A DNA stretch of 36,349 bases from Desulfobulbaceae bacterium (lineage in GTDB: Bacteria > Desulfobacterota > Desulfobulbia > Desulfobulbales > Desulfocapsaceae). Shown piece after piece: positions 1 to 23,953 of this stretch. Where the stretch lies: contig QZLB01000164.1 in NCBI GenBank assembly GCA_004796425.1, positions 1 to 36,349 on the forward strand, written 5' to 3'. The notes under the pieces are model-generated. The model was given only the letters and a program-made list of their open reading frames with translations. It had not been told where the DNA came from and searched no databases. The translations under genes and the position numbers were made by a program. Numbering within the stretch: position 1 is the stretch's first letter; each line of letters opens with the position of its first letter.

Positions 1-425
1 ACCGATGGAATACCGAGCATCTCTGCAATCAGCACCCCGACCTGGCCACTTCCTCGGTCCTGGGACTGCATGCCGGTAAAGATGACATCAAAGTCCTTAT
101 CGCGTGCATACTCAGCGATCATGCCGGCGATCATCAGTGGTTCTTTGGTGCTGACCTCTTCATCCCCAATATGAGCACCGCGATCACATCCCATAGCCAA
201 GGCCTTTTTCATGGTTTCCTTGACCTTGTCTGAACCTATACAGGCAACCGTGATATCTGCATCACCGACCTGCTCTTTAAGCTGAACGGCTTGCTCAACC
301 GCATATTCATCATATTCATTCATTCGCCAGGCAAGATCAGCCTGGTCGTACCAGACACCATTGTCACCCACACGAAATTTTGATTCCATGTCAGGAACCT
401 GCTTGATACAAACCAATATTTTCAT
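1..425 (-). CDS. etfB: Electron transfer flavoprotein beta subunit, 3' end outside the window
   Basis: Reading the minus strand from the ATG at 425 gives MKILVCIKQVPD, the usual EtfB start, and later the family hallmark GMQSQDRGSGQVG. About 141 residues are present of roughly 250-260 expected; the C-terminus lies off the left edge. EtfB with EtfA forms a soluble FAD/AMP heterodimer that takes electrons from acyl-CoA dehydrogenases. A strong ribosome binding site (GGAGGTGAAT before ATG) lies in the 14-bp gap after the upstream oxidoreductase gene, so the two are almost surely one transcript. etfA would be expected just beyond the edge. Context says this Etf serves the acyl-CoA dehydrogenases encoded at 5.2-6.9 and 8.5-10.3 kb and passes electrons to its operon partner. 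Confidence 0.95.
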   Translation of the reverse strand, partial: MKILVCIKQVPDMESKFRVGDNGVWYDQADLAWRMNEYDEYAVEQAVQLKEQVGDADITVACIGSDKVKETMKKALAMGCDRGAHIGDEEVSTKEPLMIAGMIAEYARDKDFDVIFTGMQSQDRGSGQVGVLIAEMLGIPS

Positions 426-439
426 ATTCACCTCCGCTC

Positions 440-2428
440 TTAGCTCTGCGTTATTCTCTCAACAAGAATCTCTGCAATATCCCTGGGCACGAGTGATTCC
501 TCAACCCCGGCACCTTTCACACCATCTTCAAACATTGTTAAACAAAAGGGGCAATTCGATACCAAAACCGGCGCACCGGTCTGAGCTGCCATATCCACAC
601 GGGCAACGTTCATTCGCTCCCCGAGCTTTTCTTCTGCCATAATCCTGCCGCCCCCGGCACTGCAGCAAAATGCATTTTCCCTATTTTTAGCCATCTCCGC
701 GATCGAACCACCAGCGCGACTGATCAGGTTTCGTGGCGCATCATAAATGTCATTGTGCCTGCCGAGGTAACATGAATCATGATAAGTGCAGGAGAGATCC
801 TCACCATTAATCTGAAGTTTCCCGGAATCAATGAGTTGCTCAAGGTATACGGTGTAAAACACGACCTCGGCCTCAAGCCCCAGATCACGGTAATCTTTAT
901 TGAGTGTGTTGTAGCAATGCGGACAGGTGGTCACGATGGTCGAAATTTCACTCCCGTTAATCAATTCGACATTTTCCATGGCCAGGCTTTGATAGAGATA
1001 CTCGTTGCCCATCTTACGCATCGGCTCACCACAACATTTCTCTTCTTTGCCAAGGATTCCGACCTTGACGCCCGCACTATTGCACAAGGTAACAAAACTT
1101 TTGGCCACCGAGATATTTCGTTTGTCAAATGAACCGTAACAGCCCGTGAAATAGAGTACATCTAACTCTGCACCGTCTGAAACCAGTGAAACATCCAGTT
1201 CTTGAGCCCATTCTCCTCTGGAGGCATAACCCATCCCGAGTGGATTGCCATTAACCTCTGTCTGCTCCATCGCTGTCATCACTTCCTCGCCGGGGAACTC
1301 GCCTTCCATCAGTACCAGGCTTCGGCGCATATCAACAATTTTGGAGACATGCTCGATTGATGCAGGGCAGATTTCCTGACAGGCGCGACATGTTGTACAG
1401 GACCACAAGACGTCCTTGGTGATAGTGTCGATTAATGGCTGTTCATCTTTGTCAAAGGCAAGATCACCAATCTGATTCACCAGTTTCATCGGCGAAAGCG
1501 GTTTATCGGTATTCCAGGCGGGGCAGCGGTCCTGACACCGTTTACATTTGGTACAGGCATCCGCATCGAAAATATCCTTCCAACTCATATCTGCAAGTTC
1601 AGTTACCCCGAATGTTTCGGCATCCTCATCTTCCAGATCCAGACTGACCAGTTTACCTTTGGGCCCACGATCGGTGAAAAAGTAGTTCGCACTGGTGGTG
1701 AATATATGCCGGAACTTGGTCAGAGGGATAATGGCCAGAAATGCCATAACCATCAACAGGTGTGCCCACCAGAGAATTTTGTGCAGCAGCCTCAGACTCG
1801 CTTCATCTGCACCGGATAGCAGATTGGCCACAAACAGCCCGACAGGTGACCAGGCTGCCACCGGTTCGCCCATCTCGGTTACCGCCATTCGGGCACCTTC
1901 AATGACGAATCCGGAAATAAGAATTAGAAATAATAAACCGTGCATGATCGCATCATCACGTCCGGTTTCAAGTCCCTCGGGTTTGAGCACATACCTGCGC
2001 ACCAGAAGCGCGCCGAGCATCAGGATACAAACCAGTCCTGCCAGGTCGAGGGTGATGGAAAAAATCTTATAAAAATTTCCTTTGAGAAAAACATAATCAA
2101 ATAGCAGGTCGGTAAAATCAGCCTGAATGACGATCAGCGTCGTCCCGATGAAGAGCAGGAAAAACCCCCAGAAGAACAGGCCATGAAACATGCCCGGTAA
2201 CCGAACTGTCGTAACCTTTTTCTGGAACAGGACATTGTTCACCAAATCGATGGCGCGCGCACCCGGATTATCACTCCTGTTAAGTGGCCCACCCTTTTTG
2301 TAAACCAGTACGCGTCGGTAAAAACCATACGCCAACAGGCCCAGGGCGATAACAACCAGCAGGTACATTGGCAGCAGGGTTGTAACACCATGCCCCACAT
2401 TCCAGTAAATCTCGCGAGTAAATTCCAT
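440..2428 (-). CDS. Membrane FeS oxidoreductase, Etf:(mena)quinone oxidoreductase type
   Basis: 662 residues. The N-terminal half has about six hydrophobic segments (roughly residues 15-240) with several His, resembling the NarI/HdrE cytochrome b module. Next come two [4Fe-4S] motifs, CTKCKRCQDRCP (Cys292/295/298/302) and CTTCRACQEICP (Cys344/347/350/354). Last are two HdrD-type CCG domains, with EKCCGEP, CPHCYNTL, HDSCYLGRHN, CCSAGGG and CPFCLTMF. This is the DUF224/HdrD-related family placed next to etf genes in syntrophs and sulfate reducers. From family knowledge it carries electrons from reduced Etf into the membrane quinone pool. The start has a GGGAG site 7 nt upstream of ATG. The gene is the first of an operon with etfB, and its promoter carries a MerR-type operator. 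Function is inferred from domain layout and context; a heterodisulfide reductase-like role is less likely. Confidence 0.9.
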   Translation of the reverse strand: MEFTREIYWNVGHGVTTLLPMYLLVVIALGLLAYGFYRRVLVYKKGGPLNRSDNPGARAIDLVNNVLFQKKVTTVRLPGMFHGLFFWGFFLLFIGTTLIVIQADFTDLLFDYVFLKGNFYKIFSITLDLAGLVCILMLGALLVRRYVLKPEGLETGRDDAIMHGLLFLILISGFVIEGARMAVTEMGEPVAAWSPVGLFVANLLSGADEASLRLLHKILWWAHLLMVMAFLAIIPLTKFRHIFTTSANYFFTDRGPKGKLVSLDLEDEDAETFGVTELADMSWKDIFDADACTKCKRCQDRCPAWNTDKPLSPMKLVNQIGDLAFDKDEQPLIDTITKDVLWSCTTCRACQEICPASIEHVSKIVDMRRSLVLMEGEFPGEEVMTAMEQTEVNGNPLGMGYASRGEWAQELDVSLVSDGAELDVLYFTGCYGSFDKRNISVAKSFVTLCNSAGVKVGILGKEEKCCGEPMRKMGNEYLYQSLAMENVELINGSEISTIVTTCPHCYNTLNKDYRDLGLEAEVVFYTVYLEQLIDSGKLQINGEDLSCTYHDSCYLGRHNDIYDAPRNLISRAGGSIAEMAKNRENAFCCSAGGGRIMAEEKLGERMNVARVDMAAQTGAPVLVSNCPFCLTMFEDGVKGAGVEESLVPRDIAEILVERITQS

Positions 2429-2680: not shown

Positions 2681-3085
2681 ATGGCTCAGGCGAATAAAGA
2701 TGCAGTTCAGATTGGAGAACTGGCAAAACAGCTTGGCATCACCACCAGAACTATTCGCTACTACGAGGAGATCGGCTTGATGGGTGAAACCGAGCGGTTA
2801 GGGGGCGAAACCAGAAGTTATGACAACGATGACGTGCTGCGCCTCAAGTTCATCCTCAAACTCAAGGGTCTTGGTATCTCATTAAAAGAGATCAGTGAAC
2901 TCTCTGATATTTTTGATATTAACAAACAGGACTTCCAAACTATCACCCCCAAACTCATCGAAATCCTTGATCATCATATCGCCATGGTTGATGAAAAAAT
3001 GGCCAGTCTCTCATCATTGAGAAAAGATATCGTTGATTACCGGGTAAGAATTACCGAGTTTCTCAACCAGCCACACGAAAGTTAA
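2681..3085 (+). CDS. MerR-family transcriptional regulator of acyl-CoA oxidation
   Basis: 134 residues. The N-terminal winged helix-turn-helix is clear (IGELAKQLGITTRTIRYYEE, about residues 11-30), followed by the MerR wing and a C-terminal dimerisation helix. There are no cysteines, so it is not a metal or redox MerR such as MerR, CueR or SoxR. Size and lack of a large effector domain resemble LiuR-like MerR regulators of acyl-CoA and branched-chain amino acid degradation (family knowledge). An AGGGGAGG-like site lies about 9 nt upstream of ATG. It is divergent from the Etf:quinone oxidoreductase gene, and matching palindromes occur at its own, the oxidoreductase and the fadD promoters. I infer that it represses these genes, perhaps until an acyl-CoA accumulates; the effector is not visible from sequence. 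Confidence 0.9.
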   Translation: MAQANKDAVQIGELAKQLGITTRTIRYYEEIGLMGETERLGGETRSYDNDDVLRLKFILKLKGLGISLKEISELSDIFDINKQDFQTITPKLIEILDHHIAMVDEKMASLSSLRKDIVDYRVRITEFLNQPHES

Positions 3086-3966: not shown

Positions 3967-5148
3967 CTACTTGAGTCCGACCGAGCGTAAAATTTTTCTT
4001 TTTACACCCTGAACCAGAAAGGGGGTATACCGTTTTTTCTCTTTGAGGATTGTGGCAAACAATTCTCTTTTACGCTCTGGCGGTGTCTCCCGTTTCTGTG
4101 GTTTAAGGGACAAGGCTTCAGCCTTACATGCGGTAATACAGGCCCCGCACCCCAAACACTTTGACTCATCGAGCCGCGATGTTTTTAGTTGCTTCTTCTC
4201 CGATGTATCAGCAATCATTTCTATTGCCTCAACGTTGCACGCCTTGGCACACATGCCACATCCTTTGCAGCGGCTTGCGTCCATTTCCAGGGTGTAGGAG
4301 GCTTTGGCAACCCCGGCGGGATAGCCTCTGATGACACCACCGAGTAGCTCACAGCAGCAGGAACAGCAGTTACAGATAAATGAAGGCTTGTGGCGGATAT
4401 TATCGGTGATATGGGTAAGATTGAGTTTCTGTGCCCGGGCCAGGATTTCCAGCAATTCCTCAACGCTCCGATGCTCGGCAAAACCACGCCGTACCATAAA
4501 CCTGGCAGCAGTACCGAGTGAAATGCATATTTCAGTCGTCGGTGCATTTTTATCACAACTTTTATTGAGGTGTTCTTTCTTGTGTCGGCAATAACACATG
4601 CCGATCGCACCATAGCCTGCCTTTTTAATAATTTCCCGCGCACTTTCATAAGGAGTAACCACCGATTCAACCGGGATATGATCTTCGTAGGGCAAAGCGC
4701 GGGTCAATGGCGTCTTGCTGGCAAACATCTCCTGCCCCATCCGGTTATCCGGGTCCTCAAAAAGATACTCATGCATCAGTTGCGCCAATTCTTCAACCGG
4801 CAGATCCTGCCGCTGTTTCATGAAGGTAAATTCGAAAAATCCGATGAGTCCCGGCATCAGCAGATAGTAGGCACCTCCCTTGAATTTCAAGTCCATAACC
4901 AACCCCTTCTGAGCCATCTCTTCAAGTATTCCAGACAGCACATCCGGTTTCATCCGGGTTGCCCGCGCAAGCTCAGACAGGGAGGCTTCCTGCAGGGGAA
5001 ATCGTGAGGCAACAAAGGCCTCTTCCTCAGAAAAAAGAATCGACAGGATCTTTCTCAAGGTCTCGGAATCGGGAAGCCCGATCGGATATTGATTGAGTCG
5101 ATCGATGAGTGGAACGATATTACTTTTTCCGTTGAAATGATGTCCCAT
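3967..5148 (-). CDS. FeS protein with N-terminal winged-helix-like region and two ferredoxin clusters
   Basis: 393 residues. The first ~110 resemble a winged-helix domain (EASLSELARATRMKPDVLSG). The middle has GMCYCRHKKEHLNKSC and an unusual Cys-dense motif CNCCSCCCELL (near residue 260). The C-terminus has two [4Fe-4S] ferredoxin motifs, CKGCGMCAKAC and CLGCGACITAC. It probably transfers electrons in the cytoplasm; the HTH-like part could instead be a protein-interaction module. The ATG has an AAGGGAG site at good spacing and lies 17 bp after the preceding acyl-CoA dehydrogenase, so it is last in the operon hydrolase-thioesterase-dehydrogenase-FeS. I recognise the architecture from anaerobes but know no proven function. 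A role as electron acceptor for the neighbouring dehydrogenase is an inference. Confidence 0.85.
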   Translation of the reverse strand: MGHHFNGKSNIVPLIDRLNQYPIGLPDSETLRKILSILFSEEEAFVASRFPLQEASLSELARATRMKPDVLSGILEEMAQKGLVMDLKFKGGAYYLLMPGLIGFFEFTFMKQRQDLPVEELAQLMHEYLFEDPDNRMGQEMFASKTPLTRALPYEDHIPVESVVTPYESAREIIKKAGYGAIGMCYCRHKKEHLNKSCDKNAPTTEICISLGTAARFMVRRGFAEHRSVEELLEILARAQKLNLTHITDNIRHKPSFICNCCSCCCELLGGVIRGYPAGVAKASYTLEMDASRCKGCGMCAKACNVEAIEMIADTSEKKQLKTSRLDESKCLGCGACITACKAEALSLKPQKRETPPERKRELFATILKEKKRYTPFLVQGVKRKILRSVGLK

Positions 5149-5165
5149 CTAGTTGGCTCCCTTCA

Positions 5166-6872
5166 CTATGGATTCATGGTATATTCATCCTGCAGCGGTA
5201 AAATCACTTCACGCCACAGATCATTAAACGTTTCTTGCTGCTGAGCTGGCTTCTGTATCATGGCTTTGTACCGTGCTTCCTGGTCCTCAGAAAGTTCATA
5301 TGACAAAACCATATTCAAACTGGCCCGGGAGAAGTCTGTCACCAGGCAGGAGAAGATTGCCTCAACCAACGTGGGCTGTTGCCCCTCCAACTGAGCTGCC
5401 TCGAGTATAAGCTGCGCATAAACCACCAGGGTGAACAATTCTCCGGCCGCCAACATGTAATCAACATTTTTTACCTGTTCCTGGTCAGGAGGTGTCGCAA
5501 CAAGCATTTCCCGTAACAGGTCAACCTGCTTCTTGAACAATGTTACATTTTCACTGGTGAAGTGTTGATATGCTCGTTCATAATCGGGAAATCGAATGGT
5601 GGCAAGGCCACCGGTTTTCTGCTGGAACAGGTAGGTTTCATCACTTGGTTCAGACCGCCGTCCGATTTCGGGATAGTCTACCGGTGAAAAGAAATAATTT
5701 TTCACAAATTTAATGATCAGGGCCATATTCACATGCTCGGTGCCCTCAAGTTTTGGCAGCATACCGATGTCCCTGATCGCCATCTCGAAATAGGTATCCT
5801 GTTCATATCCTTTGGCGGCAATAATTTCATGAAGCATGTCGATCACCTGCTCACCCTGTCCGGTAACCTTCATTTTCACAACCGGGTTAAACAGGAGGTA
5901 CCGTCGATCATCATCGGAAGCGACTTGCAGGTAATCTACAGTTCTCCAGGCAAACATTTTCATCGCAGCCAAACGAACATATGATTCGACGAACAGTCTT
6001 CTGACATGCGGAAAATCAGTGACCGAACGGCCATAGAGTCTTCGTGCGCTGGCATGGTTCAACGCTTCATAAAAAGCATGAGTGCAGATGCCAACCGAGG
6101 CACAACCCAACTCAAATTTGCCGATATTGATTGTATTGAGTGATGAGTTCCAGGCGTGCTCACCAGTTGATATAATATCCTCATCCTTGACGGGGTAATC
6201 GTTCAACCGGTATTCCGCAACGTAAGCCTGTCTCACTCCTGAAGTATCGATTTTCTTCACACAATCGTACTGCGGTTGATCTGGTTCAGCGGTAAAAAAT
6301 ACATATTCACCAGAATCCTTATACTTACCGAAGGTCGAGACAAGGACCGCACAATTCCCATTGCCGATATAATATTTTGAGCCATTGGCAAGATACCCAC
6401 CCGCCGGGTTCTTTTCCAAGGTCATCTCGCTTGAATAGAGATCAGCGCCATGGTTTTTTTCCGAAAGTCCGAAGGCAAAAACTCCACCCTGTTTGAGCAG
6501 TTGGGCGGTGCGATGTTTGAGTTCCTCATTCTGACCCATCCAGATTGGTCCCAGGCCAAGAATGGTGACCTGCCAGGCGTACCAGTAACAGAGTCCATAG
6601 AAACCCAATACCTCATTGTATTCACAGATTCTGCGCATATCCCAGCGATAATTATGATCATTCCCACCATAGGATGCCGGGGTAAGAAGCGTCGCAAAAA
6701 CCTGCCCCTCTTTGATAAAATCAAGAAAATCCTCATACCAGACCATTGACTGGTCATCCTGCTTGATTCTCGACAACCCTTTATTCTCAAAGAATTCGAT
6801 GGTTTTTTCCACCAGGGAACGAAACACGGGATCCGTGCATGTAGTTTGGTAATTTTTGGGATTTAATAACAT
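5166..6872 (-). CDS. Acyl-CoA dehydrogenase-family protein (divergent type)
   Basis: 568 residues with acyl-CoA dehydrogenase fold features: the flavin/substrate loop GLSEKNHGADLYSSEM (about 135-150), the middle beta domain, and a C-terminal helical domain with LEGTEHVN, where Glu376 is in the position of the catalytic base. It is longer than the classic ~380-residue enzymes and clearly different from the FadE paralogue at 8.5-10.3 kb: it lacks the usual EPGSGSD motif. It would oxidise an acyl-CoA to the enoyl-CoA using FAD; chain length and substrate cannot be read from the sequence. The start is supported by AGGAG 8 nt upstream of ATG. It lies in an operon between a thioesterase-like gene and the FeS protein, so it may pass electrons to that FeS protein as well as to Etf. 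Confidence 0.85.
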   Translation of the reverse strand: MLLNPKNYQTTCTDPVFRSLVEKTIEFFENKGLSRIKQDDQSMVWYEDFLDFIKEGQVFATLLTPASYGGNDHNYRWDMRRICEYNEVLGFYGLCYWYAWQVTILGLGPIWMGQNEELKHRTAQLLKQGGVFAFGLSEKNHGADLYSSEMTLEKNPAGGYLANGSKYYIGNGNCAVLVSTFGKYKDSGEYVFFTAEPDQPQYDCVKKIDTSGVRQAYVAEYRLNDYPVKDEDIISTGEHAWNSSLNTINIGKFELGCASVGICTHAFYEALNHASARRLYGRSVTDFPHVRRLFVESYVRLAAMKMFAWRTVDYLQVASDDDRRYLLFNPVVKMKVTGQGEQVIDMLHEIIAAKGYEQDTYFEMAIRDIGMLPKLEGTEHVNMALIIKFVKNYFFSPVDYPEIGRRSEPSDETYLFQQKTGGLATIRFPDYERAYQHFTSENVTLFKKQVDLLREMLVATPPDQEQVKNVDYMLAAGELFTLVVYAQLILEAAQLEGQQPTLVEAIFSCLVTDFSRASLNMVLSYELSEDQEARYKAMIQKPAQQQETFNDLWREVILPLQDEYTMNP

Positions 6873-6918
6873 GTTCCACTCCTGCTTTTATAGCATTACG
6901 ATTCGTTACCAGATTTTG

Positions 6919-7452
6919 TTAGAGTGCAGTCCTGACGCGATCCCACCGTTTTATCTGCCAGGTTGTATGGGCGACAGCCACCGTATTTCCGCTGACATCG
7001 GTCACCTGACTTTTAATTGTAATCGAAACTGATTCCTGGTGGTTAAGTGGCTCCACCACCTTTTGATCAAGTATTTTTTGCTCAACTGCGCTTTCCGAAT
7101 AGACCTGCGCTTTCGCCTGATAAAGATAATCGATCTCCAACTTCGACATGATCAGCCGGAAGCGCTGGGGATCGAGTGTTGTGAGCAGCAGAAACCCTGC
7201 CGAAAACTCCGCCACTGTAGCGATGGCACAGGCATGTATTCCTCTGATATGATTGTGGTTTTTCCTTCGGTATGGGGCAGTTGTCCTGATCTTATTCGGC
7301 TCAATATGAGCTAACCTGAAACCATGGGGACGATTAAACGGGATAACCCTGCCCAGCAGGATATTCAACACGCGCAGCCAAAATGGCGAGTACGTTGCTT
7401 TGGTGGCCAGTGGCGATAGCAGATTAAATCCATTCATGTGCTTTCTTCCCAT
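6919..7452 (-). CDS. Hotdog-fold thioesterase-like protein (DUF4442/PaaI-type)
   Basis: Up to 177 residues. The stretch HNHIRGIHACAIATVAEFSAG is the typical hotdog helix region, and the C-terminal half has alternating strands (SVSITIKSQVTDVSGNTVAV) as in DUF4442 proteins. Such proteins hydrolyse acyl-CoA or acyl-ACP thioesters; the substrate is not known here. Two starts are possible: the ATG at 7452, or an in-frame ATG at 7437 (MNGFNLL) with a GGGAAGAAAG sequence upstream; the second is a little more likely. It lies 39 bp after the metallo-hydrolase gene and 46 bp before the acyl-CoA dehydrogenase, all in the same direction, so it is probably part of one operon that trims or recycles acyl-CoA. 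Confidence 0.75.
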   Translation of the reverse strand: MGRKHMNGFNLLSPLATKATYSPFWLRVLNILLGRVIPFNRPHGFRLAHIEPNKIRTTAPYRRKNHNHIRGIHACAIATVAEFSAGFLLLTTLDPQRFRLIMSKLEIDYLYQAKAQVYSESAVEQKILDQKVVEPLNHQESVSITIKSQVTDVSGNTVAVAHTTWQIKRWDRVRTAL

Positions 7453-7491
7453 TTCCCTTTGATCCGTGACCGAAATTCTTTGCGCTTTAAC

Positions 7492-8445
7492 TCATGCATC
7501 TGTGCCACCAAGCGCCTTATGAAACAAGTCCGAGACCTGAGCAAACAATTTTATGGTTTCAAGTGAGCTTTTCAGCCGATCAGAATCATAGAGAAAATCT
7601 TTTAAGAACATGATCTCAGATGCTTTCAAATACACATGGAAAGGATCTGTCATGGAATTCCCGAACAGCTTATTAATGATCTCGGCAATTGAATACTTTG
7701 TGATGTACGGTCGTATCTGATTGGCCCGTACCAATGTTTTCGAAATATAAAACAGGATGATATCATCGACATTTTCAACCTTCTTACGATGACCGGGAAG
7801 AATAGTCCGATCCTGAAGAGAACAAAGCTTGATGATGGACTGGCAATAGGCCTGGTAATTATTGAACCGGCCACCCTGCTCCAGATCCACGTCCAGAAGC
7901 GGCGATTGGAAAATACCTTTGAGCAGCGTATCTCCGGTAATCGCCCACTCTGAGGTGGCATATACCAGATCACTCTGTGAATGACCGGCACAACCAAGCA
8001 CTTCTACCCCAAGACGTTCTGGGATATCGCTTTCAGCGATCCTGAAATTATCCGGTAGCGGCGGAAATAACACCCCCCGGTAAAATGATGCCCGCAGATC
8101 ATCCAGGTAGTGCTCATCAAAACCCATTTCGGTGAGCAGCTGGTACAGACTTTCCATCCGCTCGTCACGTTGCTGGATTTTCAGCACATCGCGAAAGGGC
8201 AGATAAACCGTGGCTTCGGTGTTTTTTTCAAGCCAGGAGGATTGACCGTAATGGTCGAGGTGACAATGGGTAACGATAACGTGTTTGAGCCGGTCAAGAC
8301 TGATCTCTTTTTGGAGAAATTCCTGAGCGCGCTCAGTGGGTGGACCGGTATCAAACAGGACCAGATCTCCGTCAAGTTCTACCGTATAACAATGGACCGG
8401 CCCCACCATATAGGGAGTATCTACCGTATGCTGTGTTGGTATCAT
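7492..8445 (-). CDS. Metallo-beta-lactamase-fold hydrolase
   Basis: 317 residues. The MBL signature HCHLDH is present (His60, His62, Asp64, His65 within VTHCHLDHYGQSSWL), followed by GHSQSDLVY and TGDTLL, which supply further metal ligands. This is a glyoxalase II-like or lactonase-like cytoplasmic hydrolase. With a thioesterase-like protein and an acyl-CoA dehydrogenase downstream, thioester hydrolysis is a reasonable guess, but the substrate is unknown. It is the first gene of its apparent operon and follows a strong hairpin that separates it from the fad operon. The region just upstream of its ATG (GGGGCGGGA) is a poor ribosome binding site, and no clear promoter was found. Confidence 0.85.
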   Translation of the reverse strand: MIPTQHTVDTPYMVGPVHCYTVELDGDLVLFDTGPPTERAQEFLQKEISLDRLKHVIVTHCHLDHYGQSSWLEKNTEATVYLPFRDVLKIQQRDERMESLYQLLTEMGFDEHYLDDLRASFYRGVLFPPLPDNFRIAESDIPERLGVEVLGCAGHSQSDLVYATSEWAITGDTLLKGIFQSPLLDVDLEQGGRFNNYQAYCQSIIKLCSLQDRTILPGHRKKVENVDDIILFYISKTLVRANQIRPYITKYSIAEIINKLFGNSMTDPFHVYLKASEIMFLKDFLYDSDRLKSSLETIKLFAQVSDLFHKALGGTDA

Positions 8446-8486: not shown

Positions 8487-8521
8487 CACCCCCCTGAACT
8501 CAAAGTGAGCTCAGGGGGGTG
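8487..8521 (-). terminator. Strong hairpin after the fad operon
   Basis: A 16-bp stem (8487-8502 with 8506-8521) has a 3-nt loop and one mismatch, with six consecutive C:G pairs in the middle. It starts 5 nt after the fadE stop codon on the minus strand. No long T-run follows on either strand, so it may be an imperfect intrinsic terminator or a 3'-end-stabilising structure that reduces transcription into the hydrolase operon. Confidence 0.6.
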
Positions 8522-8526
8522 AGTGA

Positions 8527-10308
8527 TTAGCCAAACAGGTATTTTTCTTCTTCGCACGCAACTTCAGCGAGCAGACGTTTTGCCGCCAGCAGGCCGGTTG
8601 CATCATACTTTGCAAAGCGTCGGCAACCAGAGAGGATCATGGTCAAGGTATCACCCTCTTCTACATAGAAGGCACCTTTGCGTGCAGCAGTACCAATTGC
8701 TTCGGTGGCGGTAAAGGTGAATACTTTCACTGCTGCTTTGAGCAGTTCCTGTTTCTTTTCGCTCACCTTCGCAAAACACTTCTCAGCACGAAGCACGGCA
8801 CTTTCAATGGCGAAAATCTGGATTGCAATATCAGCGGCTGCCATCAGGATTTCCTGCTCTTCGGCAATCTTGTCCATAAATTTCTGAACACCAGTACCTG
8901 CAAGAATCAGAAAGAGGGTCTTGATGTTTTTAATAAGCGCTTTCTCGGCAGCAAAGAGCACCGAATCATCAATTTCCTCAAAGCTCGGTGTCATGAGTGA
9001 TTCAAACGCTTTCATTGCTTCGGCCTGAAGCGGTAGTTCACCCTTCATGGCCTTTCGTAAAATCATACCGGGAATCAGCAGCCGGTTAATTTCGTTGGTG
9101 CCTTCAAAAATCCTGTTGATGCGCTCATCGCGATAATAGCGCTCGGCTGGATACTCGCTGCAAAACCCGTAGCCGCCGTGAATCTGGACCACCTCATCAA
9201 CGGTCTGGGCCAGAACCTCTGAACAGAACACCTTGGAAATTCCGCATTCGGGGGCAAACTCTTCAATACCCTTCTGGTATTCTTCGTAGTAATTGTCAAT
9301 CCCCTTATCGATGGTGGCCAGTTTGTCATCGAGCAATCCGGCCAGACGATATACCAGAGATTCAGACGCATAAATTGCTGCGGTAAGATCTGCAACCTTT
9401 TCCTTTATTGCGCCGAATTTGCTGATCTGGGTATTAAACTGTTTTCTTTCGTTGGCATATTTGATGCCTTCCACCAGCGCCATCTTCGAGGCTCCGGTGA
9501 CGCCTGCCCCAAGCTTGAAGCGACCGACGTTGAGTACGTTAAAGGCAATCTTATGGCCTTTGCCAATTTCACCCAGCAGGTTTTCCACCGGTACCTTACA
9601 ATTATCCAGAATAATCTGGGTGGTCGAAGAACCTTTGATTCCCATCTTCTTCTCTTCAGCACCGACAACCAACCCTTCAAAACTTTTCTCTACCAGAAAA
9701 GCAGTGAAATGCTCTTTGTCAATCTTGGCAAAAACCGTAAAAAGTTCAGCAAATCCACCATTGGTAATATACTGCTTGGTACCGTTGAGGATGTAGTGCT
9801 TGCCATCTTCTGAGAGCACGGCACTGGCCTGGGCACCAAGGGCGTCACTTCCAGAGCCTGGTTCGGTCAGACAATAGGCGGCACACCATTCACCGGAGAT
9901 GATCTTCTCCAGATATTTTTCTTTCTGCTCATGGGTTCCATAGTAAATAAGCGGCAAGGTACCGATGCCGGTATGAGCGGCATAGGCGACAGAAAAAGAA
10001 CCACCCTGAGATACCTTTTCGGCAACCAGCATACTTGAGGCTTTGTCCAATTCAAGCCCGCCATATTCCTCGGGCGCATCCATCATCAGCAACCCCAGCT
10101 CACCACATTTCTGCATTCCCGCAACGACCAGATCAAAATTCTGTTTATCGATCTCTTCGATATGAGGGACAATTTCATTTTCGACAAACTGTTCGGTGGT
10201 CTCTGCGAATTGACGCTGCTCATCACTGAAATCTTCAGGAGTAAACACATCCTCACAGGCCACATCGGCAATCAGATATTCACCACCTTTAAAAATTTTC
10301 TCTGCCAT
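8527..10308 (-). CDS. fadE: Long-chain acyl-CoA dehydrogenase, FadE of the fadNAE type
   Basis: 593 residues, close to the 594 of B. subtilis FadE and carrying the long C-terminal extension of very-long-chain enzymes. Both acyl-CoA dehydrogenase signatures are present: CLTEPGSGSDALGAQ (146-160) and QIHGGYGFCSEYPAERYYRD (375-394). FEGTNEINR has Glu402 in the place of the catalytic base. It is an FAD enzyme forming 2-enoyl-CoA and giving electrons to Etf. The start has AAGGTG upstream of ATG. It is the last gene of fadD-fadN-fadA-fadE, 28 bp after fadA, and is followed at once by a strong hairpin. Chain-length preference is inferred from similarity only. Confidence 0.93.
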   Translation of the reverse strand: MAEKIFKGGEYLIADVACEDVFTPEDFSDEQRQFAETTEQFVENEIVPHIEEIDKQNFDLVVAGMQKCGELGLLMMDAPEEYGGLELDKASSMLVAEKVSQGGSFSVAYAAHTGIGTLPLIYYGTHEQKEKYLEKIISGEWCAAYCLTEPGSGSDALGAQASAVLSEDGKHYILNGTKQYITNGGFAELFTVFAKIDKEHFTAFLVEKSFEGLVVGAEEKKMGIKGSSTTQIILDNCKVPVENLLGEIGKGHKIAFNVLNVGRFKLGAGVTGASKMALVEGIKYANERKQFNTQISKFGAIKEKVADLTAAIYASESLVYRLAGLLDDKLATIDKGIDNYYEEYQKGIEEFAPECGISKVFCSEVLAQTVDEVVQIHGGYGFCSEYPAERYYRDERINRIFEGTNEINRLLIPGMILRKAMKGELPLQAEAMKAFESLMTPSFEEIDDSVLFAAEKALIKNIKTLFLILAGTGVQKFMDKIAEEQEILMAAADIAIQIFAIESAVLRAEKCFAKVSEKKQELLKAAVKVFTFTATEAIGTAARKGAFYVEEGDTLTMILSGCRRFAKYDATGLLAAKRLLAEVACEEEKYLFG

Positions 10309-10336
10309 ATCATCACCTTCTGATCAAGTTGACCAA

Positions 10337-11509
10337 TTAAAGTCTTTCGAAAAGTCCCGCAGCGCCCATACCACCGCCAATGCACATCGAGACTAAGCCA
10401 TATTTCAGATTTCTGCGTCCCATTTCATGGAGCAGCGTTGTCGTTAATTTAGCACCGGTACAGCCCAGTGGGTGGCCAAGAGCAATCGCCCCGCCATTGA
10501 CATTCACGATGTCTCTGTCCAGACCAAGTTCCTGGATTACGGCCAGAGCCTGAGCAGCAAACGCCTCATTCAACTCTATCAACTGGATATCATCCTGTTT
10601 GAGTCCTGCAAGCTCCAAGGCCTTTGGAATTGCAGCCACGGGGCCAATTCCCATCACCTCTGGCGGCACTCCCTTTACCGCAAATGACAGATATCGAGCC
10701 ATGGGATCTTTGCCCAGTTCCTTGAGGAAGTCCTCTGAAACGATCATTGCACACGCCGCACCATCGGTCATCTGTGAGGAGTTACCTGCCGTAACCGGAC
10801 CGCCGACTTTAAAAGCCGGCCGTAATCTGGCCAGTGTTTCAACGGTCGTTCCCGGGCGAACACCATCGTCCACCGTGACCTGCTCCTTGACCCTGGTCAT
10901 TTTGCCATCAACCAGTTTATCAATTTCGATTTCGACCGGGATGATTTCATCAGCAAAGGTTCCCGATTCGATCGCTTTTGCCGCTTTAGCGTTACTCTGG
11001 ACGGCAAACTCATCCATCATCGCCCGGTCAATTCCATATTTTTCTGCCACCAGCTCAGCTGTCACGCCCATTGACGAGAAGGCCTCCGGCCAGTCCACCA
11101 TCATCCCGGGATTGGCACTGTATTTCAGCCCGCCCAGTGGTACACATGACATTGACTCGACCCCACCGGCGATGATACAGTCCGCAGCCCCAAGCATTAC
11201 CCGCTCGGCAGCCATGGAAATCGTCTGCAGTCCTGATGAGCAGAAGCGATTAATCGTCTGTCCCGGTACCTCGATGGGTAGACCGGCTTTCATCGCCGCT
11301 ACCCGGCCGACATTCATACCCTGTTCCGCCTCGGGGAATGCGCATCCCAGGTACACATCCTCAACTTTGGCAGGATCAACACCCGTGCGTTCAACCAGAC
11401 CGCTGATTGCAATAGCCGCCAGGTCATCCGGACGCATGTCTTTGAATTTCCCTTTGTTTGCCCGGCATCCCGGTGTCCGGTAACTGGCAAGTACATAGGC
11501 TGTTTTCAT
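10337..11509 (-). CDS. fadA: Acetyl-CoA acyltransferase (3-ketoacyl-CoA thiolase)
   Basis: 390 residues, the usual thiolase length. The nucleophile lies in [11 protein letters not shown] (Cys90). The second catalytic region is [10 protein letters not shown] (His346) and the acid/base Cys376 is in [19 protein letters not shown] is also conserved. It cleaves 3-ketoacyl-CoA with CoA to acetyl-CoA and a chain two carbons shorter, the last step of beta-oxidation. It lies 39 bp after fadN with a good AGAGGAA site before ATG. The neighbours make a degradative role more likely than acetoacetyl-CoA synthesis. Confidence 0.95.
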
Positions 11510-11548
11510 GATATATTCCTCTCTTGTCGCCTTGCGTTTTTGACGAGA

Positions 11549-13936
11549 TCAGTTTCTGAGCGGTTTACCTGTTTTCAGCATGTGCTGGATTCGCTCAGCT
11601 GTTTTTTTGTTGCCACAGAGTTTTAGAAAACTTTCACGTTCAAGCTGGAGCAGATACTCTTCAGTAACCAGTGTACCGGAGTTCACATCACCACCGCAGA
11701 TCACGTCGGCAATCACACCCCCCATCTCTGCTTCATATTCAGTGACAAAATTACCCATCATCATATTCCAGAGCTGGCTCTTGATGCTCGCTGCTACGTT
11801 CCTGCCTGGTACCGGAATATTTTGCAGCGGCTTCTGGGGGCGATAATTAACCGCCAGGCCCAAGACCTTCTGCTTGGCATCAGCAATCTGCCGATCAATA
11901 TCCATGGAGATACTGTCACCATCCCGCATATAGCCCATTCCTTTGAGCTCGGCGGCTCCCATGGAGACCTGAGCCATGGCGATCTGCTTGAAATTTTTGA
12001 ATATAAACGGTTGCACGTCAGTATCGAACTTTTGCGAGAGCTCGACTGCCCTGAGACACATCTCCTTGGTACCGCCGCCAGCCGGCAGCAGTCCGACTCC
12101 GATTTCGACTAATCCCATATAGGTCTCTGCATACGCAGTGATTGAATCGGCATGGAGACAGAACTCACAGCCGCCCCCCAGGGTCATGTTAAACGGTGCG
12201 GCCACAACCGGGACTCGCGCATATTTGACGGCCATTGTCGCCTTCTGGAAGGAGCGGAGCACCATGTTAATGTCATCAAAGGCTCCTTCTGCCAGTGCCA
12301 CGGCCAGCATCATCAGGTTCGCCCCAACTGAAAAATTAGCTCCCCGGTTGGCAATTACCAGGCCGGTTCCTTCTTCCTCGGCCCGCTTGATGGCCTTGTG
12401 CGTCATGGCCAAGATATCACCACTGATGGCATTCATTTTCGAATGGAACTCAAAGCAGAAAACACCGTCGCCCAGATCTATTACTGAACAGTTCGCGTTT
12501 TTCTCAACGACGCGATCCGCTTTTTTCAGGATTTCCAGTTGGATCTCGCCTTCTTTGAGCGCCACCGGCTTGTAAACTTTCTCCAGTACATCAAAATATT
12601 CTTTGGTTCCATCGTCAGCAAACCGATAAAAAGAGTCGAGCCCCTTCATGAATTCAGGCACCGCGATTCCGTCTTTTTCTGCCCGCTTCACAAAGGATCC
12701 GACCCCGATTGCATCAAGCATTTCAAACGGTCCGATTTCCCAGTTAAACCCCCATCGCATGGCATTATCAATATTTACAATATCATCAGCTATTTCAGGA
12801 ATACGATTGGCTGCATAGATCAGGGAATCCCGCAACGTACACCAGGCATACTGGGCGCCTTTGTCAGCTCCGCCAACTACACTCTTGATGCGTTGCCCGA
12901 CATCATCCACCTGTTTGACCATCTGGATCGAAGCGAACTTGGGTTTTTCCAACGGCTTGTATTCGCCACTTTTGTAATCGAAGTAAAAAATCTGTCGTTT
13001 GCCATCGACCATTTCTTTCTTGTAAAAGCCCTGCTTGGTCTTGTTGCCGAGCATTTTCTTCTCTATCATCTGGGCCATGAAATCTGGGAGTTTAAAGACA
13101 TCCCGTTCTTCATCTTCTGGAAGCTGGTCATAAGAGTTGGTACCGACATGAGCAAGGGTATCGAGTCCGACCAGATCCGCGGTTCTGAAAGCTGCACTCT
13201 TCGGACGACCGGTTGCCGGACCCGAAACAGCGTCAACTTCCTCAACCGTCATGTCAAGTTCCTGCATGTGCTGAATACCCTTGTAGATTGCATAGACACC
13301 AATACGGTTGGCGATGAAATTCGCGGTATCTTTGGCGTACACAATACCCTTGCCAAGTCGCTTACTCATGAAATCAGCCATTCCCTGGACCACTGCGGGG
13401 TCAGTATCCTTACATGGCACGATTTCCATCAATCGCATGTAGCGCGGTGGATTGAAGAAATGAGTAACGAGAAAATTTTTCCGTACTTCAAGAGGCAGCG
13501 CTTCTGCCATTTCATTCACTGAAAGACCGCTGGTATTGGTCGACAGAATCGCTCCTTCTGAAAGATGGGGAAGGATTTTTTTCAATAGATCAAGTTTGAT
13601 CGGCATGTATTCAACAACCACCTCGACGATCCAGTCACATCCAGCGAGCTTCTCCAGATCATCTTCAAGATTACCCACTTCGATCTGCGTGGCATACTCT
13701 TTAAGATAAAATGGTGCCGGCTTCATCTTCAGCAGCCCATCCAGACCAGCCTGGGAAATTCTGTTTCTTACTGGTGCACTCTCAAGTGTAAGACCCTTGG
13801 CTTTCTCCTGCTCTGTCAGCTCCCTGGGAACGATGTCGAGCATCAGGACTTCAAGCCCTCCATTTGCCAGGTGGGCAGCAATTGTTGCGCCCATGACACC
13901 GGCGCCAAGAACTGCAACTCGATTAATCTGCCTCAT
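11549..13936 (-). CDS. fadN: 3-hydroxyacyl-CoA dehydrogenase / enoyl-CoA hydratase, FadN type
   Basis: 795 residues. The NAD-binding 3-hydroxyacyl-CoA dehydrogenase part comes first: VAVLGAGVMGATIA near the N-terminus, with catalytic THFFNPP and MEIV. The crotonase (hydratase) domain is C-terminal, with the oxyanion-hole stretch GANFSVGANL and two Glu in GGGCEF and LVEIGVGLLPAGGGT, matching the catalytic pair of hydratases. This order is the reverse of E. coli FadB/FadJ and matches B. subtilis FadN (about 789 residues). It performs the hydration and oxidation steps of beta-oxidation. Its ATG overlaps the fadD stop codon (ATGA), with GGAG upstream, so translation is coupled. Confidence 0.93.
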   Translation of the reverse strand: MRQINRVAVLGAGVMGATIAAHLANGGLEVLMLDIVPRELTEQEKAKGLTLESAPVRNRISQAGLDGLLKMKPAPFYLKEYATQIEVGNLEDDLEKLAGCDWIVEVVVEYMPIKLDLLKKILPHLSEGAILSTNTSGLSVNEMAEALPLEVRKNFLVTHFFNPPRYMRLMEIVPCKDTDPAVVQGMADFMSKRLGKGIVYAKDTANFIANRIGVYAIYKGIQHMQELDMTVEEVDAVSGPATGRPKSAAFRTADLVGLDTLAHVGTNSYDQLPEDEERDVFKLPDFMAQMIEKKMLGNKTKQGFYKKEMVDGKRQIFYFDYKSGEYKPLEKPKFASIQMVKQVDDVGQRIKSVVGGADKGAQYAWCTLRDSLIYAANRIPEIADDIVNIDNAMRWGFNWEIGPFEMLDAIGVGSFVKRAEKDGIAVPEFMKGLDSFYRFADDGTKEYFDVLEKVYKPVALKEGEIQLEILKKADRVVEKNANCSVIDLGDGVFCFEFHSKMNAISGDILAMTHKAIKRAEEEGTGLVIANRGANFSVGANLMMLAVALAEGAFDDINMVLRSFQKATMAVKYARVPVVAAPFNMTLGGGCEFCLHADSITAYAETYMGLVEIGVGLLPAGGGTKEMCLRAVELSQKFDTDVQPFIFKNFKQIAMAQVSMGAAELKGMGYMRDGDSISMDIDRQIADAKQKVLGLAVNYRPQKPLQNIPVPGRNVAASIKSQLWNMMMGNFVTEYEAEMGGVIADVICGGDVNSGTLVTEEYLLQLERESFLKLCGNKKTAERIQHMLKTGKPLRN

Positions 13937-15789
13937 TTGTCATCTCCATCCTTGTTTTTTTGACCAAACACCAGGCCATTGCCATTAGCCATGTACATTT
14001 CTTCGACAATGCCTTTGTATTTATTGTAAATTTCCTTGCGCTTCAGCTTCAGCGTCGGGGTCAGTTCCCCACCCTCTATGGTGAATTCATGGGGAATCAG
14101 GGCAAAATATTTGATAGTGCTGTATGGGGGCTGATCTTTATTCAGCTCCTCAATTCTTTCTGTGTAGAGTTTTTGTATACGACTGCTTTTCACCAGTTCT
14201 TCTGTATCGAGATAGTCAAGTTGTTCCTCTCGCGCCATGTCAATCAAGCGTTCAAGATTTGGCGTCAGTAGTGCCACCAGGTATGGCTTGCGATCACCGA
14301 AAACGATGGCCTGGGAGATATATTTGTCCAGTTTCAGTTCATTTTCGATTGGTTGAGGTGCTATGTTCTTGCCACCAGCCGTAACAATGATTTCCTTTTT
14401 ACGGTCAATGATGTAGACAAAACCGTCTTCATCAATCCTGGCGATATCACCGGTTCTGAACCAGCCATCATCAAACGCATCACTGGTAGCCTGGTCGTTT
14501 TTATAGTAGCCCCCCATAACCTGCGGTCCCCTGGCCAGCAACTCTCCATCTTCAGCGACTTTGAGCTCAGTGAGATCAAGCGGTTTGCCAACTGAATCAA
14601 AACGTACCTCATCAATACTGCTCAGGGTCAGAGCCGGGCTTGTCTCGGTTAAGCCATAGCCATTATAGACCGGGATCCCAATCGACCACATGAACTCGTT
14701 GATAGTCTTGTCCAGGGGTGCTCCACCACAGATGAACCCTTTGAGCTTGCCGCCAAAACGGGCTCTGATTTTCCTGAAAACCAACCGGTCGAAAAAGCGA
14801 TATTTCAAGCCAAGCAAGCCAACCGGCTCTTTACGAATGTACTTCTTATTGACATACTCTCGGCCAACGGCTAGCGCCTGGTGGAAGAGATTTTTCCGAA
14901 ATGAGCTCATCTGGTGAGCACTCTCGAACACCCGTGAATAGATCTTCTCAAAAAGACGCGGGACACTCACCATCCAGGTTGGCTGTATCTCGACCATATT
15001 TTCCATTACCTTTCTGACATCCTCGGCAAAGGCAACATGCTGACCACTGAGTAGCGTGGCATAGTATCCACCAGTGCGTTCCAGTACGTGGCTCAAGGGG
15101 AGAAAGCTGAGGAACGTTTCACTTTCGGTAAGCGCACCCAACTTCTTGAGCCCGTACTGGGAATTGCACATCACATTGTATTGTGTGAGGATCACCCCTT
15201 TGGGAACACCGGTTGTTCCGGAAGTGTAGATGACCGTTATGGTGTCCTTCTGGGTAATTTTATCGATCCGCTCTTCAATTTCCTGCTTCTCATCTTTCGC
15301 TAACGGGGTAGAAACTTCCGAGAGCTGGTACTGGGTGTATACCGGAAAGCTCCGATCACCCATAAACCGCTCGTAAGAGATCACCAGCTCAACGCCGGGG
15401 ATTTCATCCCGTACCGACAGCAATTTTTCATACTGCGCCTTGGTCGACACAAAAACGATGCGTGCATCACAATGATTGATGATGTACGCAGCTTGCTGTC
15501 CGGTGTTGGTAGCGTAAATCGGTACGGTGATACCACCGGCACTCTGAATACCAAAATCGGAGATTGCCCACCCAAGGCGGTTCTCAGAAAAAATCGCCAC
15601 CCGGTCCCCCGGTTTCATGCCAGCTTTGGCTAACCCCCGTGCCAGCAGCAAAACCCGATCATAAAACTCCTGATACGTAAGTGACAGGTAGGTGTCCTGT
15701 TTTTTGTAACTAATTGCGGTACGCTGCCCGAATTTCTGGGCATTGTCCTTCAGAATTGCCGGAATTGACTGGTATGACAGAAAGTCCAT
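13933..15789 (-). CDS. fadD: Long-chain acyl-CoA synthetase (AMP-forming)
   Basis: 618 residues from the preferred start. The adenylate-forming signature YTSGTTGVPKG is at 188-198, followed by YNGYGLTETSPAL and GWFRTGDIARIDEDGF. It activates free fatty acids to acyl-CoA with ATP, feeding the pathway encoded downstream. I chose the ATG at 15789 (MDFLSYQSIPAILKD) because AAGGAG lies 10 nt upstream; an in-frame ATG at 15831 would add 14 residues but has no ribosome binding site. It is the first gene of the fad operon, with a promoter and operator about 75 nt upstream. The many Lys/Glu-rich loops and the length fit the FAA1/ACSL-like long-chain branch of the family. Confidence 0.92.
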   Translation of the reverse strand: MDFLSYQSIPAILKDNAQKFGQRTAISYKKQDTYLSLTYQEFYDRVLLLARGLAKAGMKPGDRVAIFSENRLGWAISDFGIQSAGGITVPIYATNTGQQAAYIINHCDARIVFVSTKAQYEKLLSVRDEIPGVELVISYERFMGDRSFPVYTQYQLSEVSTPLAKDEKQEIEERIDKITQKDTITVIYTSGTTGVPKGVILTQYNVMCNSQYGLKKLGALTESETFLSFLPLSHVLERTGGYYATLLSGQHVAFAEDVRKVMENMVEIQPTWMVSVPRLFEKIYSRVFESAHQMSSFRKNLFHQALAVGREYVNKKYIRKEPVGLLGLKYRFFDRLVFRKIRARFGGKLKGFICGGAPLDKTINEFMWSIGIPVYNGYGLTETSPALTLSSIDEVRFDSVGKPLDLTELKVAEDGELLARGPQVMGGYYKNDQATSDAFDDGWFRTGDIARIDEDGFVYIIDRKKEIIVTAGGKNIAPQPIENELKLDKYISQAIVFGDRKPYLVALLTPNLERLIDMAREEQLDYLDTEELVKSSRIQKLYTERIEELNKDQPPYSTIKYFALIPHEFTIEGGELTPTLKLKRKEIYNKYKGIVEEMYMANGNGLVFGQKNKDGDDK

Positions 15790-15865
15790 GATTCCACTTC
15801 TCCTTGGGAAAAAGCTCTCGGTTCCAATCATGCATCTACGATTTTTTCCATCCTCTTCTTCCGAC

Positions 15866-19018: not shown

Positions 19019-20461
19019 TCAGGGGCTCAAGGGTGGTTCGAGGGCCAGGATGAGGAGCGCCCTCACTCCCCGAGGAGTGCGGTTCTGAAGGGTAATAGTG
19101 CCACCATGCAGGTGAGCAACTTCACGAACAAAATTAAGCCCCAAACCGGTGCTTTTCTTACCACTGTCAGGACGCTGAAGAGAAAAGAATTTCTCGAAGA
19201 TCCGCTGGGTGGCGTACGGTTCTATACCAACTCCCTGATCCACGATTTCGATCATCAGATGAGAACCTTCCTGTCTGCATTGAATCGAGATGGCGCCACC
19301 CTCCTCACTGAAATCAATACTATTCTGTAACAGGTTGACCAAGGCCCGGTGAAGCAGAAATGAATCACCGGTCAACGTTACATCCTCCAAGGCAACCGAC
19401 ACCGAAACGGACTTGCGGGTCATCACCGATTCAAGTCCCTCGACCACGGTATTGACTAACCCTTTGAGTGATACCGGTTCCATCTTCACCAGCTTCTGTC
19501 TGTTTTCAAGGGCTGCCAGTTCAAGCATCCGGTCTATGATATCCTGGATCCGCAGTGACTCATTCTTAATATTGTTTAGAAATCGTTTACGCTGGTTCTC
19601 CTCCATCGGCTCATCGAGCAATTCGGCAGCACCCCTGATCGCAGACAGCGGGCTTTTAATTTCATGGGTGAGATTCTGGATATATTCCTCCACATATTTT
19701 TTCCCTTCCAGCGCCTCCTGCATCTCCTTGAATGCCGTTCCCATCTGAGAAATCTCACTTTTGCCAAGCTCGGGAAAGGGTGGTCTTGAACCATCGGTCA
19801 TACCAATTGCGTAATCCGTTAAGCGCTTGATGGGCCGGGTAATCCAATAGGAAACAAGATAACTGAACAGACTTGCCACCAGCAGGGCAATCAGGGCGAC
19901 GGCAACAACCTGAACCTTGGCGTTCTCAACAAACCAGGTAATGTTTGTGGTCGGTTTTCCAACACTGAGCACCCCGACAATTTCACCGTCAACTTTTATG
20001 GGGGCTGCAACGAACAGAACCGATGAGTTTTCGTCATCGGGAACATTTCTGGTTGTTCTTGCCCCATATTTGCCACTGAGTGTCAGATGTACATCGCGCC
20101 ATTGTGCATAATCCTTGCCGACGTTTTCTGGAAAACGCGAATCAAAGGTTACGACACCGTTGCGATCGGTCATGTATATTCGGGTATCAACCGACTTTTT
20201 GAGCAGTTGGTAAATCTGTGCAGAAACTGACCGCTGATACACTTCTGCAAAGGTGTCATACCAGAGCGTTTCATCAAAGCTGCCGTTGCTCATCTCGATG
20301 CCAACCGCTGCAGCCAGTATATTGGCCTGATCCACCAGCGGATCCTCTACCCCTTCAAGATAGCGTGTCCGCATGTTATCCAGAATCCAGTCGAATGGAT
20401 AGTAAAGACAGACGATACTGATGGTCAGATAACAAAAGAAAATCCTGGTCGATACTTTCAT
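19019..20461 (-). CDS. creC: CreC-like sensor histidine kinase
   Basis: 480 residues (E. coli CreC: 474). A membrane segment at about 7-28 is followed by a periplasmic sensor domain containing YMTDRNGVVTFDSR and SGKYGARTTRNVPDD, very close to the same stretches of E. coli CreC. A second segment (about 185-207), HAMP, then the H-box LTHEIKSPLSAIRGAAELL (His266) and the ATPase boxes (NLLQNSIDFSEEGG, DQGVGIEPYA, KKSTGLGLNF) follow. It would phosphorylate the CreB-like regulator, whose stop codon overlaps its ATG (ATGA). Similarity over the periplasmic part, not just the kinase core, supports the name. The signal is unknown; here it is likely linked to the cell surface, given the operon. Confidence 0.9.
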   Translation of the reverse strand: MKVSTRIFFCYLTISIVCLYYPFDWILDNMRTRYLEGVEDPLVDQANILAAAVGIEMSNGSFDETLWYDTFAEVYQRSVSAQIYQLLKKSVDTRIYMTDRNGVVTFDSRFPENVGKDYAQWRDVHLTLSGKYGARTTRNVPDDENSSVLFVAAPIKVDGEIVGVLSVGKPTTNITWFVENAKVQVVAVALIALLVASLFSYLVSYWITRPIKRLTDYAIGMTDGSRPPFPELGKSEISQMGTAFKEMQEALEGKKYVEEYIQNLTHEIKSPLSAIRGAAELLDEPMEENQRKRFLNNIKNESLRIQDIIDRMLELAALENRQKLVKMEPVSLKGLVNTVVEGLESVMTRKSVSVSVALEDVTLTGDSFLLHRALVNLLQNSIDFSEEGGAISIQCRQEGSHLMIEIVDQGVGIEPYATQRIFEKFFSLQRPDSGKKSTGLGLNFVREVAHLHGGTITLQNRTPRGVRALLILALEPPLSP

Positions 20462-23907: not shown

Positions 23908-23953
23908 TGCCACCTCCTGGATTTATGTTTTATGAGTCAATAACTGGTTCCAG

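Follow-up and report, generated by a model that had tools for sequence, protein, structure and literature searches.

What are four closely spaced genes, three for predicted acyl-CoA enzymes and one for an iron-sulphur protein, doing together in a Desulfobulbaceae bacterium? We examined this question on contig QZLB01000164.1 of assembly GCA_004796425.1 (4.4 Mb in 330 contigs); the entire contig, 36,349 nucleotides, is called the window here. The four open reading frames (ORFs) span positions 3967-8445 of the minus strand and encode, in order, a metallo-beta-lactamase-fold hydrolase (MBL, 7492..8445), a hotdog-fold DUF4442 protein (6919..7452), a divergent flavoenzyme with the acyl-CoA dehydrogenase (ACAD) fold that we call ACADx (5166..6872), and an iron-sulphur protein (FeS protein, 3967..5148). 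The original prediction, made from the sequence alone, had taken them for an isolated operon beginning at the MBL gene. Its coordinates, strands and intergenic gaps of 39, 46 and 17 bp were exact. The two hydrolase genes had been placed on either side of the dehydrogenase gene; in fact both are found on its 5' side.

The four genes make up the distal end of a long-chain fatty-acid beta-oxidation locus. Its core (8527-15831) precedes them, and the whole run, FadD-FadB-thiolase-FadE-MBL-DUF4442-ACADx-FeS, lies on the minus strand. FadE, a canonical ACAD (8527..10308), scored 875 bits against NF058590 (cut-off 600), and the FadA-type thiolase (10337..11509) scored 459 bits against TIGR01930 (cut-off 240.55). 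The FadB-like 3-hydroxyacyl-CoA dehydrogenase/crotonase (11549..13936) and the FadD-type acyl-CoA ligase (13933..15831) had best matches below the cut-offs (605 bits vs 999 for NF052272 and 312 bits vs 950 for NF038343, respectively). The greater part of the locus encodes conventional fatty-acid catabolism, and the view of the four genes as a free-standing, exotic operon has to be corrected accordingly. We give about an even chance to the reading that the four genes form an accessory module of beta-oxidation for awkward, probably unsaturated, acyl-CoAs, in which the hydrolases act as safety valves and the FeS protein serves the locus.

The gene set and its order recurred in related genomes, so that the linkage on which the original prediction relied was borne out, while ACADx, DUF4442 and a FadH-like gene (a reductase of the old yellow enzyme, OYE, type) came and went. 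ACADx orthologues were found in 12 of the 58 genomes searched (the window's genome included), all from the window's family. Identity to the window copy was 67-70% in the other 11 genomes, and three of the 12 also hold a 55-56% identical paralogue. FeS orthologues with at least 63% identity were found in 18 of the 58 genomes, namely the 12 with ACADx together with G011, G012, G015, G025, G030 and G036; a 128-residue piece in G028 (57%) was left out of this count. After deduplication, 18 loci of relatives contained ACADx, the window aside; in every one the next gene in the 3' direction, on that strand, was FeS, and FeS also followed a partial ACADx in L068. Of these 18 loci, 17 contained MBL (the contig of the remaining one is truncated), 15 had the FadH-like gene and 12 had DUF4442. 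Loci L034, L040, L049 and L134 run off the ends of their contigs, and L045, L046, L050, L051 and L053 were left out of the deduplicated counts as repeats of genomes already counted.

The same arrangement was found around other gene contents. FadE-MBL with FeS and without ACADx occurred in six loci (L129, L131, L132, L133, L217, and L218). Among the genomes without ACADx, G011, G025 and G036 carry FadD-FadB-thiolase-FadE-MBL-FeS, G015 carries the same genes and DUF4442, and G030 carries FadH-DUF4442-FeS on a cut contig. Two loci from another family (L136 and L137) have FadB, thiolase, FadE, MBL, FadH, DUF4442, ACADx and FeS on one strand with extra ORFs between them. In two loci of other families, other genes fill the stretch from FadH to FeS: in L217 a chalcone-isomerase-like ORF (7553-8107, by eye) together with genes for an alpha/beta hydrolase and an enoyl-CoA hydratase/isomerase, and in L218 DUF4442, a chalcone-isomerase-like protein (8723-9271, PF16036) and a second MBL; a second MBL is also present in L136 (by eye). 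FadE-MBL...FeS is thus the usual frame, with changing acyl-CoA accessory enzymes set between.

A terminator-like hairpin with a 16-pair stem lies at the fadE/MBL junction of the window (8487..8521, minus strand), with a z score of -5.0 for the 70 nt after the fadE stop. Scoring 70 nt after each stop with 100 shuffles, we found z < -3 after fadE in 12 of 24 loci and after FeS in 4 of 24. At the other junctions the counts were 0/20 for fadB, 2/22 for thiolase, 0/25 for MBL, 0/15 for DUF4442, and 1/19 for ACADx, in loci that are related and hence not independent. The hairpin after fadE recurs in position, not in sequence, among the relatives, and a T-run stands 3' of it in several of them (by eye). 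Its place fits the cut from MBL to FeS that was drawn when the four genes were first proposed as a unit. The predicted RNA structure suggests that MBL to FeS may be a separately tuned unit, and the hairpin is possibly an attenuator or an mRNA-processing element.

The FeS gene does end the run, as first described. The accompanying statement that no electron-transfer flavoprotein (ETF) gene is present was rejected, because the start of etfB (3..425, minus strand; PF01012 84.2 bits, cut-off 26.7) lies at the contig end, with the first 141 residues present. Next to it is a gene for an EMO/EtfD-type membrane ETF:quinone oxidoreductase (440..2428, minus strand), and the two genes lie 1.5-3.5 kb downstream of the FeS gene on the same strand. 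The 440-2428 product has a heme-binding membrane domain (Nitrate_red_gam), a Fer4-type domain and two CCG stretches, and matched PDB 9ojn_A at E 4.6e-96. According to the excerpted text of two papers, EMO is an ETF:methylmenaquinone oxidoreductase (PMC8805022) and EtfD is built of CCG, 4Fe-4S and b-heme parts (PMC13083937). With these two genes, the locus has a standard electron route. The genome has a second ETF pair on another contig (C32), next to an ACAD, and eight PF00441 matches, two of which are contig-end pieces. Two plus-strand genes, for a DUF554 protein and a MerR-type protein, separate the FeS gene from the EMO/EtfD homologue. The MerR-type protein (2681-3085, on the strand opposite to EMO) is a candidate regulator of the locus, and among 29 tabulated loci from relatives, several of which end before that point, 12 have a MerR homologue opposite in strand to FeS.

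Both hydrolases probably act on thioesters. The MBL protein matched PF00753 (Lactamase_B) with 78.7 bits, and its metal-ligand set of H60, H62, D64, H65, H155, D172 and H219 (HxHxDH and further ligands) was at least 95% conserved in 24 sequences; its sequence matches in the PDB were weak (best E 2e-6). It is a probable hydrolase of acyl-CoA or other thioesters. The DUF4442 protein belongs to the hotdog family by sequence, with PF14539 over its cut-off (73.8 bits) and a match to PDB 1sh8 (E 4.4e-11). Residues N65, N67, H73 and E82 were at least 95% conserved in 17 sequences, and the protein is probably an acyl-CoA thioesterase.

ACADx proved as divergent as had been claimed from its sequence. 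In Pfam, Acyl-CoA_dh_1 (PF00441) scored 64.5 bits (cut-off 22.4), Acyl-CoA_dh_M stayed below its cut-off, and there was no match to Acyl-CoA_dh_N. The AlphaFold2 model, built with 27 sequences (mean pLDDT 88.2), has the complete three-domain ACAD fold and a C-terminal domain of the very-long-chain acyl-CoA dehydrogenase (VLCAD) type. Foldseek matched the model to 2z1q (E 2.0e-18) and also to 3owa, VLCAD, and ACAD9. VIA, the rows of which mostly cover ACADx residues 3-395, gave Z 39.1 to 7p98 (cyclohex-1-ene-1-carboxyl-CoA dehydrogenase) over 372 residues at a root-mean-square deviation of 2.2; several more ACADs scored within 1 Z of this match, in effect a tie.

The catalytic Glu, predicted to be kept, lies in LEGT on the EGT loop; E376 was invariant in all 27 aligned ACADx sequences and aligns with the Glu of FadE. 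The flavin motifs were changed. In 27 ACADx compared with 26 FadE-type sequences, TEPxxGSD has become SExxHGAD and QxxGGxG has become (E/D)x(I/V)(A/C)AxG, and the window protein has SEKNHGAD in place of the EPGSGSD-type motif. These two flavin motifs are typical of ACADs rather than defining, and the membership of ACADx in the acyl-CoA dehydrogenase superfamily stands on its modelled fold. ACADx passed no ACAD equivalog cut-off in NCBIfam (best 60.3 bits vs 600). One enzyme with the ACAD fold, 4-hydroxybutyryl-CoA dehydratase, has its own [4Fe-4S] cluster held by Cys ligands. An ACADx of this type was rejected, because no Cys stands in an invariant or nearly invariant column of the 27 sequences.

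The window ACADx was the most divergent of 17 compared, with a mean identity of 0.680 vs 0.710-0.774. Otherwise invariant sites were changed at 15 of 284 positions in ACADx, 0 of 335 in FadE, and 19 of 433 in FadB. A pseudogene or artefact was rejected, since conserved full-length relatives exist. Sampling 395 genomes of the phylum, we found ACADx in 60 (E 1e-60), and it also occurs in records from Spirochaetota and Bacillota. Close relatives occur in Desulfopila, Desulfosediminicola, Desulforhopalus, Desulfoprunum and other named records, and the host bacterium is close to Desulfopila, Desulforhopalus and Desulfoprunum. ACADx is a widespread and conserved ACAD subfamily with a changed flavin site, for which we found no NCBIfam name and no function.

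If the four genes are an accessory module, the locus would work as follows. FadD, FadB, thiolase, and FadE would run the beta-oxidation cycle, and ETF with EMO/EtfD would carry the electrons of FadE to the quinone pool. The MBL and DUF4442 proteins would hydrolyse stalled or dead-end acyl-CoAs and free the CoA, as E. coli FadM is thought to do. ACADx, through its conserved Glu, would take an acyl- or enoyl-CoA that is a poor substrate of FadE. Because a FadH/OYE-like reductase stands in the module of most relatives examined, we infer that this substrate most likely arises from unsaturated fatty acids, as an intermediate of their breakdown. The electrons of ACADx would most likely pass to the same ETF, and the FeS protein would be a multi-cluster electron-transfer protein of the whole locus, not one specific to ACADx. 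Activity of ACADx on unsaturated acyl-CoAs, if confirmed, would close a gap in how the breakdown of these fatty acids by such bacteria is understood.

Several observations weigh against this scheme. The substrate cannot be read from the sequence. The window has no FadH-like gene at this place, and when a 60-residue piece of the FadH-like protein of L031 was searched for in the genome, nothing turned up beyond a 37% match on a different contig; the window operon has lost, or never had, this gene. In the relatives, the OYE gene passed no NCBIfam cut-off (best BaiCD, 510 vs 825), so that the name 2,4-dienoyl-CoA reductase is a guess. In G012 (L130) and G065 (L216; 58%) the FeS orthologue is separate from the fad genes. 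Three additional lineages have an FeS-family gene next to ACADx, which speaks for a direct link between the two. Outside the fad locus, ACADx is mostly solitary (68 loci, including L049 and L068, which are seemingly cut fad loci), and this suggests other substrates there. A MarR-type gene lies 25-141 bp upstream of ACADx in 8 of these 68 loci, and an acetyl-CoA hydrolase/transferase-type gene lies nearby in 6 (one representative of each was identified). The two largest neighbour clusters among the 68 loci were ignored as seemingly overlapping antisense ORFs.

ACADx may instead be an enoyl-CoA reductase or a redox-neutral double-bond isomerase of unsaturated acyl-CoAs, which we consider unlikely. 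The FadH-like gene in 15 of the 18 relative loci would suit such an enzyme, as would a flavin site that has changed around a retained Glu, and L217, which has no ACADx, carries its enoyl-CoA hydratase/isomerase gene just before FeS. Against it, the modelled fold matches those of ordinary dehydrogenases.

A second alternative is the one originally proposed, that ACADx oxidises an unusual acyl-CoA and, bypassing ETF, reduces the FeS protein, as a side pathway with its own carrier. The constant position of FeS directly 3' of ACADx in the fad loci of the relatives speaks for it. We also built a quick ACADx tree (SH-aLRT only) from the window and 85 of the 94 ACADx loci, with identical and partial rows, L068 among them, left out. 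An FeS-family gene (at least 200 bits) stood within 1.5 kb in 25 of the 86 rows, and the adjacency label needs at least four changes on the tree. The 25 rows comprise 21 from the fad locus and four others. L139 and L138 come from two genomes of another family; in each, ACADx is followed, 7 and 259 bp later respectively, by a same-strand FeS-family gene with 30% identity. In L061 and L150 an FeS-family gene lies on the opposite strand, 845 and 981 bp away. Two FeS-like matches failed the adjacency rule, one of 67 bits in L208 and one of 207 bits, at a distance of 4.0 kb, in L209. By a rough estimate from a handful of family members among about 3,800 genes, chance would place the two genes side by side in far fewer than one of the 65 non-fad rows. 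Because of this low expectation, a functional tie between FeS and ACADx is likely in some lineages, and it is neither general nor exclusive.

On the other side, no FeS-family gene was found within 1.5 kb in 61 of the 86 rows (some contigs end early), the FeS gene stands beside FadE-MBL in the six loci that lack ACADx, and EtfB and EMO/EtfD are adjacent. The FeS family is also common: at E 1e-40, and with no more than four candidates per genome scored, it was detected in 188 of 395 genomes. An obligate partnership of FeS with ACADx was rejected on the 61 rows and six loci, and a carrier that belongs to ACADx alone now seems quite improbable. The original interpretation is partly supported.

A third alternative concerns the FeS protein. 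A winged-helix-like N-terminus is followed by a cysteine-rich middle and a C-terminal two-[4Fe-4S] ferredoxin domain, with tandem Fer4-type Pfam matches between residues 288 and 356. Eighteen Cys were invariant in 21 sequences, in the patterns CxC...C...C, CxCCxCCC, and two ferredoxin motifs. In the AlphaFold2 model (pLDDT 88.1), residues 29-97 have a secondary structure like that of a winged helix-turn-helix, and Foldseek gave weak matches to MarR and HlyU (E 0.06-0.07). The protein might accordingly be imagined as a redox-sensing regulator of the locus that binds DNA with its N-terminal winged helix, an idea we regard as no less improbable than a carrier dedicated to ACADx. No Foldseek match reached E 0.001 or better among the families listed there, the 18 invariant Cys and the ferredoxin domain fit electron transfer, and a MerR gene is already near EMO, both here and in relatives.

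The surroundings of 14 FeS paralogues had no common neighbour. Two paralogues (L173 and L174, 27-29% identity) adjoin small ORFs resembling hypA/hypB (by eye), and the paralogue in L164 lies near MerR and EMO homologues.

Very unlikely, finally, is that ACADx is an ETF-independent branch, whether through a remodelled flavin site that exchanges electrons with the 18-Cys FeS protein or a comparable low-potential carrier, or as a carrier-free dienoyl-CoA isomerase.

Elsewhere in the window, the 19019-23913 region encodes a VIT/VWA-like protein with a PEP-CTERM-like tail at its C-terminus, adjoining an exosortase-like membrane protein and a two-component system (by eye, from translations).

Among the matches listed in our literature search, we recognised no study that treats this cassette, and the accessory module is best compared with known systems part by part. 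For the core of ACADx the comparison is with VLCAD, ACAD9 and FadE-type enzymes (2z1q, 3owa, 3b96, and 8phe), with which it shares the ACAD core, the C-terminal helical domain and the Glu on the EGT loop; it differs in its altered flavin motifs and in an identity of 16-18% in structural alignments. The C-terminal two-cluster ferredoxin region of the FeS protein (query residues 286-346) resembles FwdF-type polyferredoxins (5t5i_F), whereas no convincing solved relative was found for its winged-helix-like N-terminal part and CxCCxCCC middle. The 440-2428 product resembles EMO/EtfD as described in the excerpts of PMC8805022 and PMC13083937, and PDB 9ojn, in its domains, its sequence and the neighbouring etfB. 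It has 662 residues vs 1042 in 9ojn_A; judging by its length, the latter is presumably the mycobacterial EtfD of PMC13083937. The module as a whole resembles the route in E. coli in which, according to the excerpted text of PMC9329746, FadH and a FadM/TesB thioesterase route deal with 3,5-tetradecadienoyl-CoA. Here, too, the core cycle is accompanied by a thioesterase-type protein of the hotdog fold and, in the majority of relatives examined, by a FadH-like reductase. The DUF4442 protein is of another hotdog family, however, and the window operon has no FadH-like gene.

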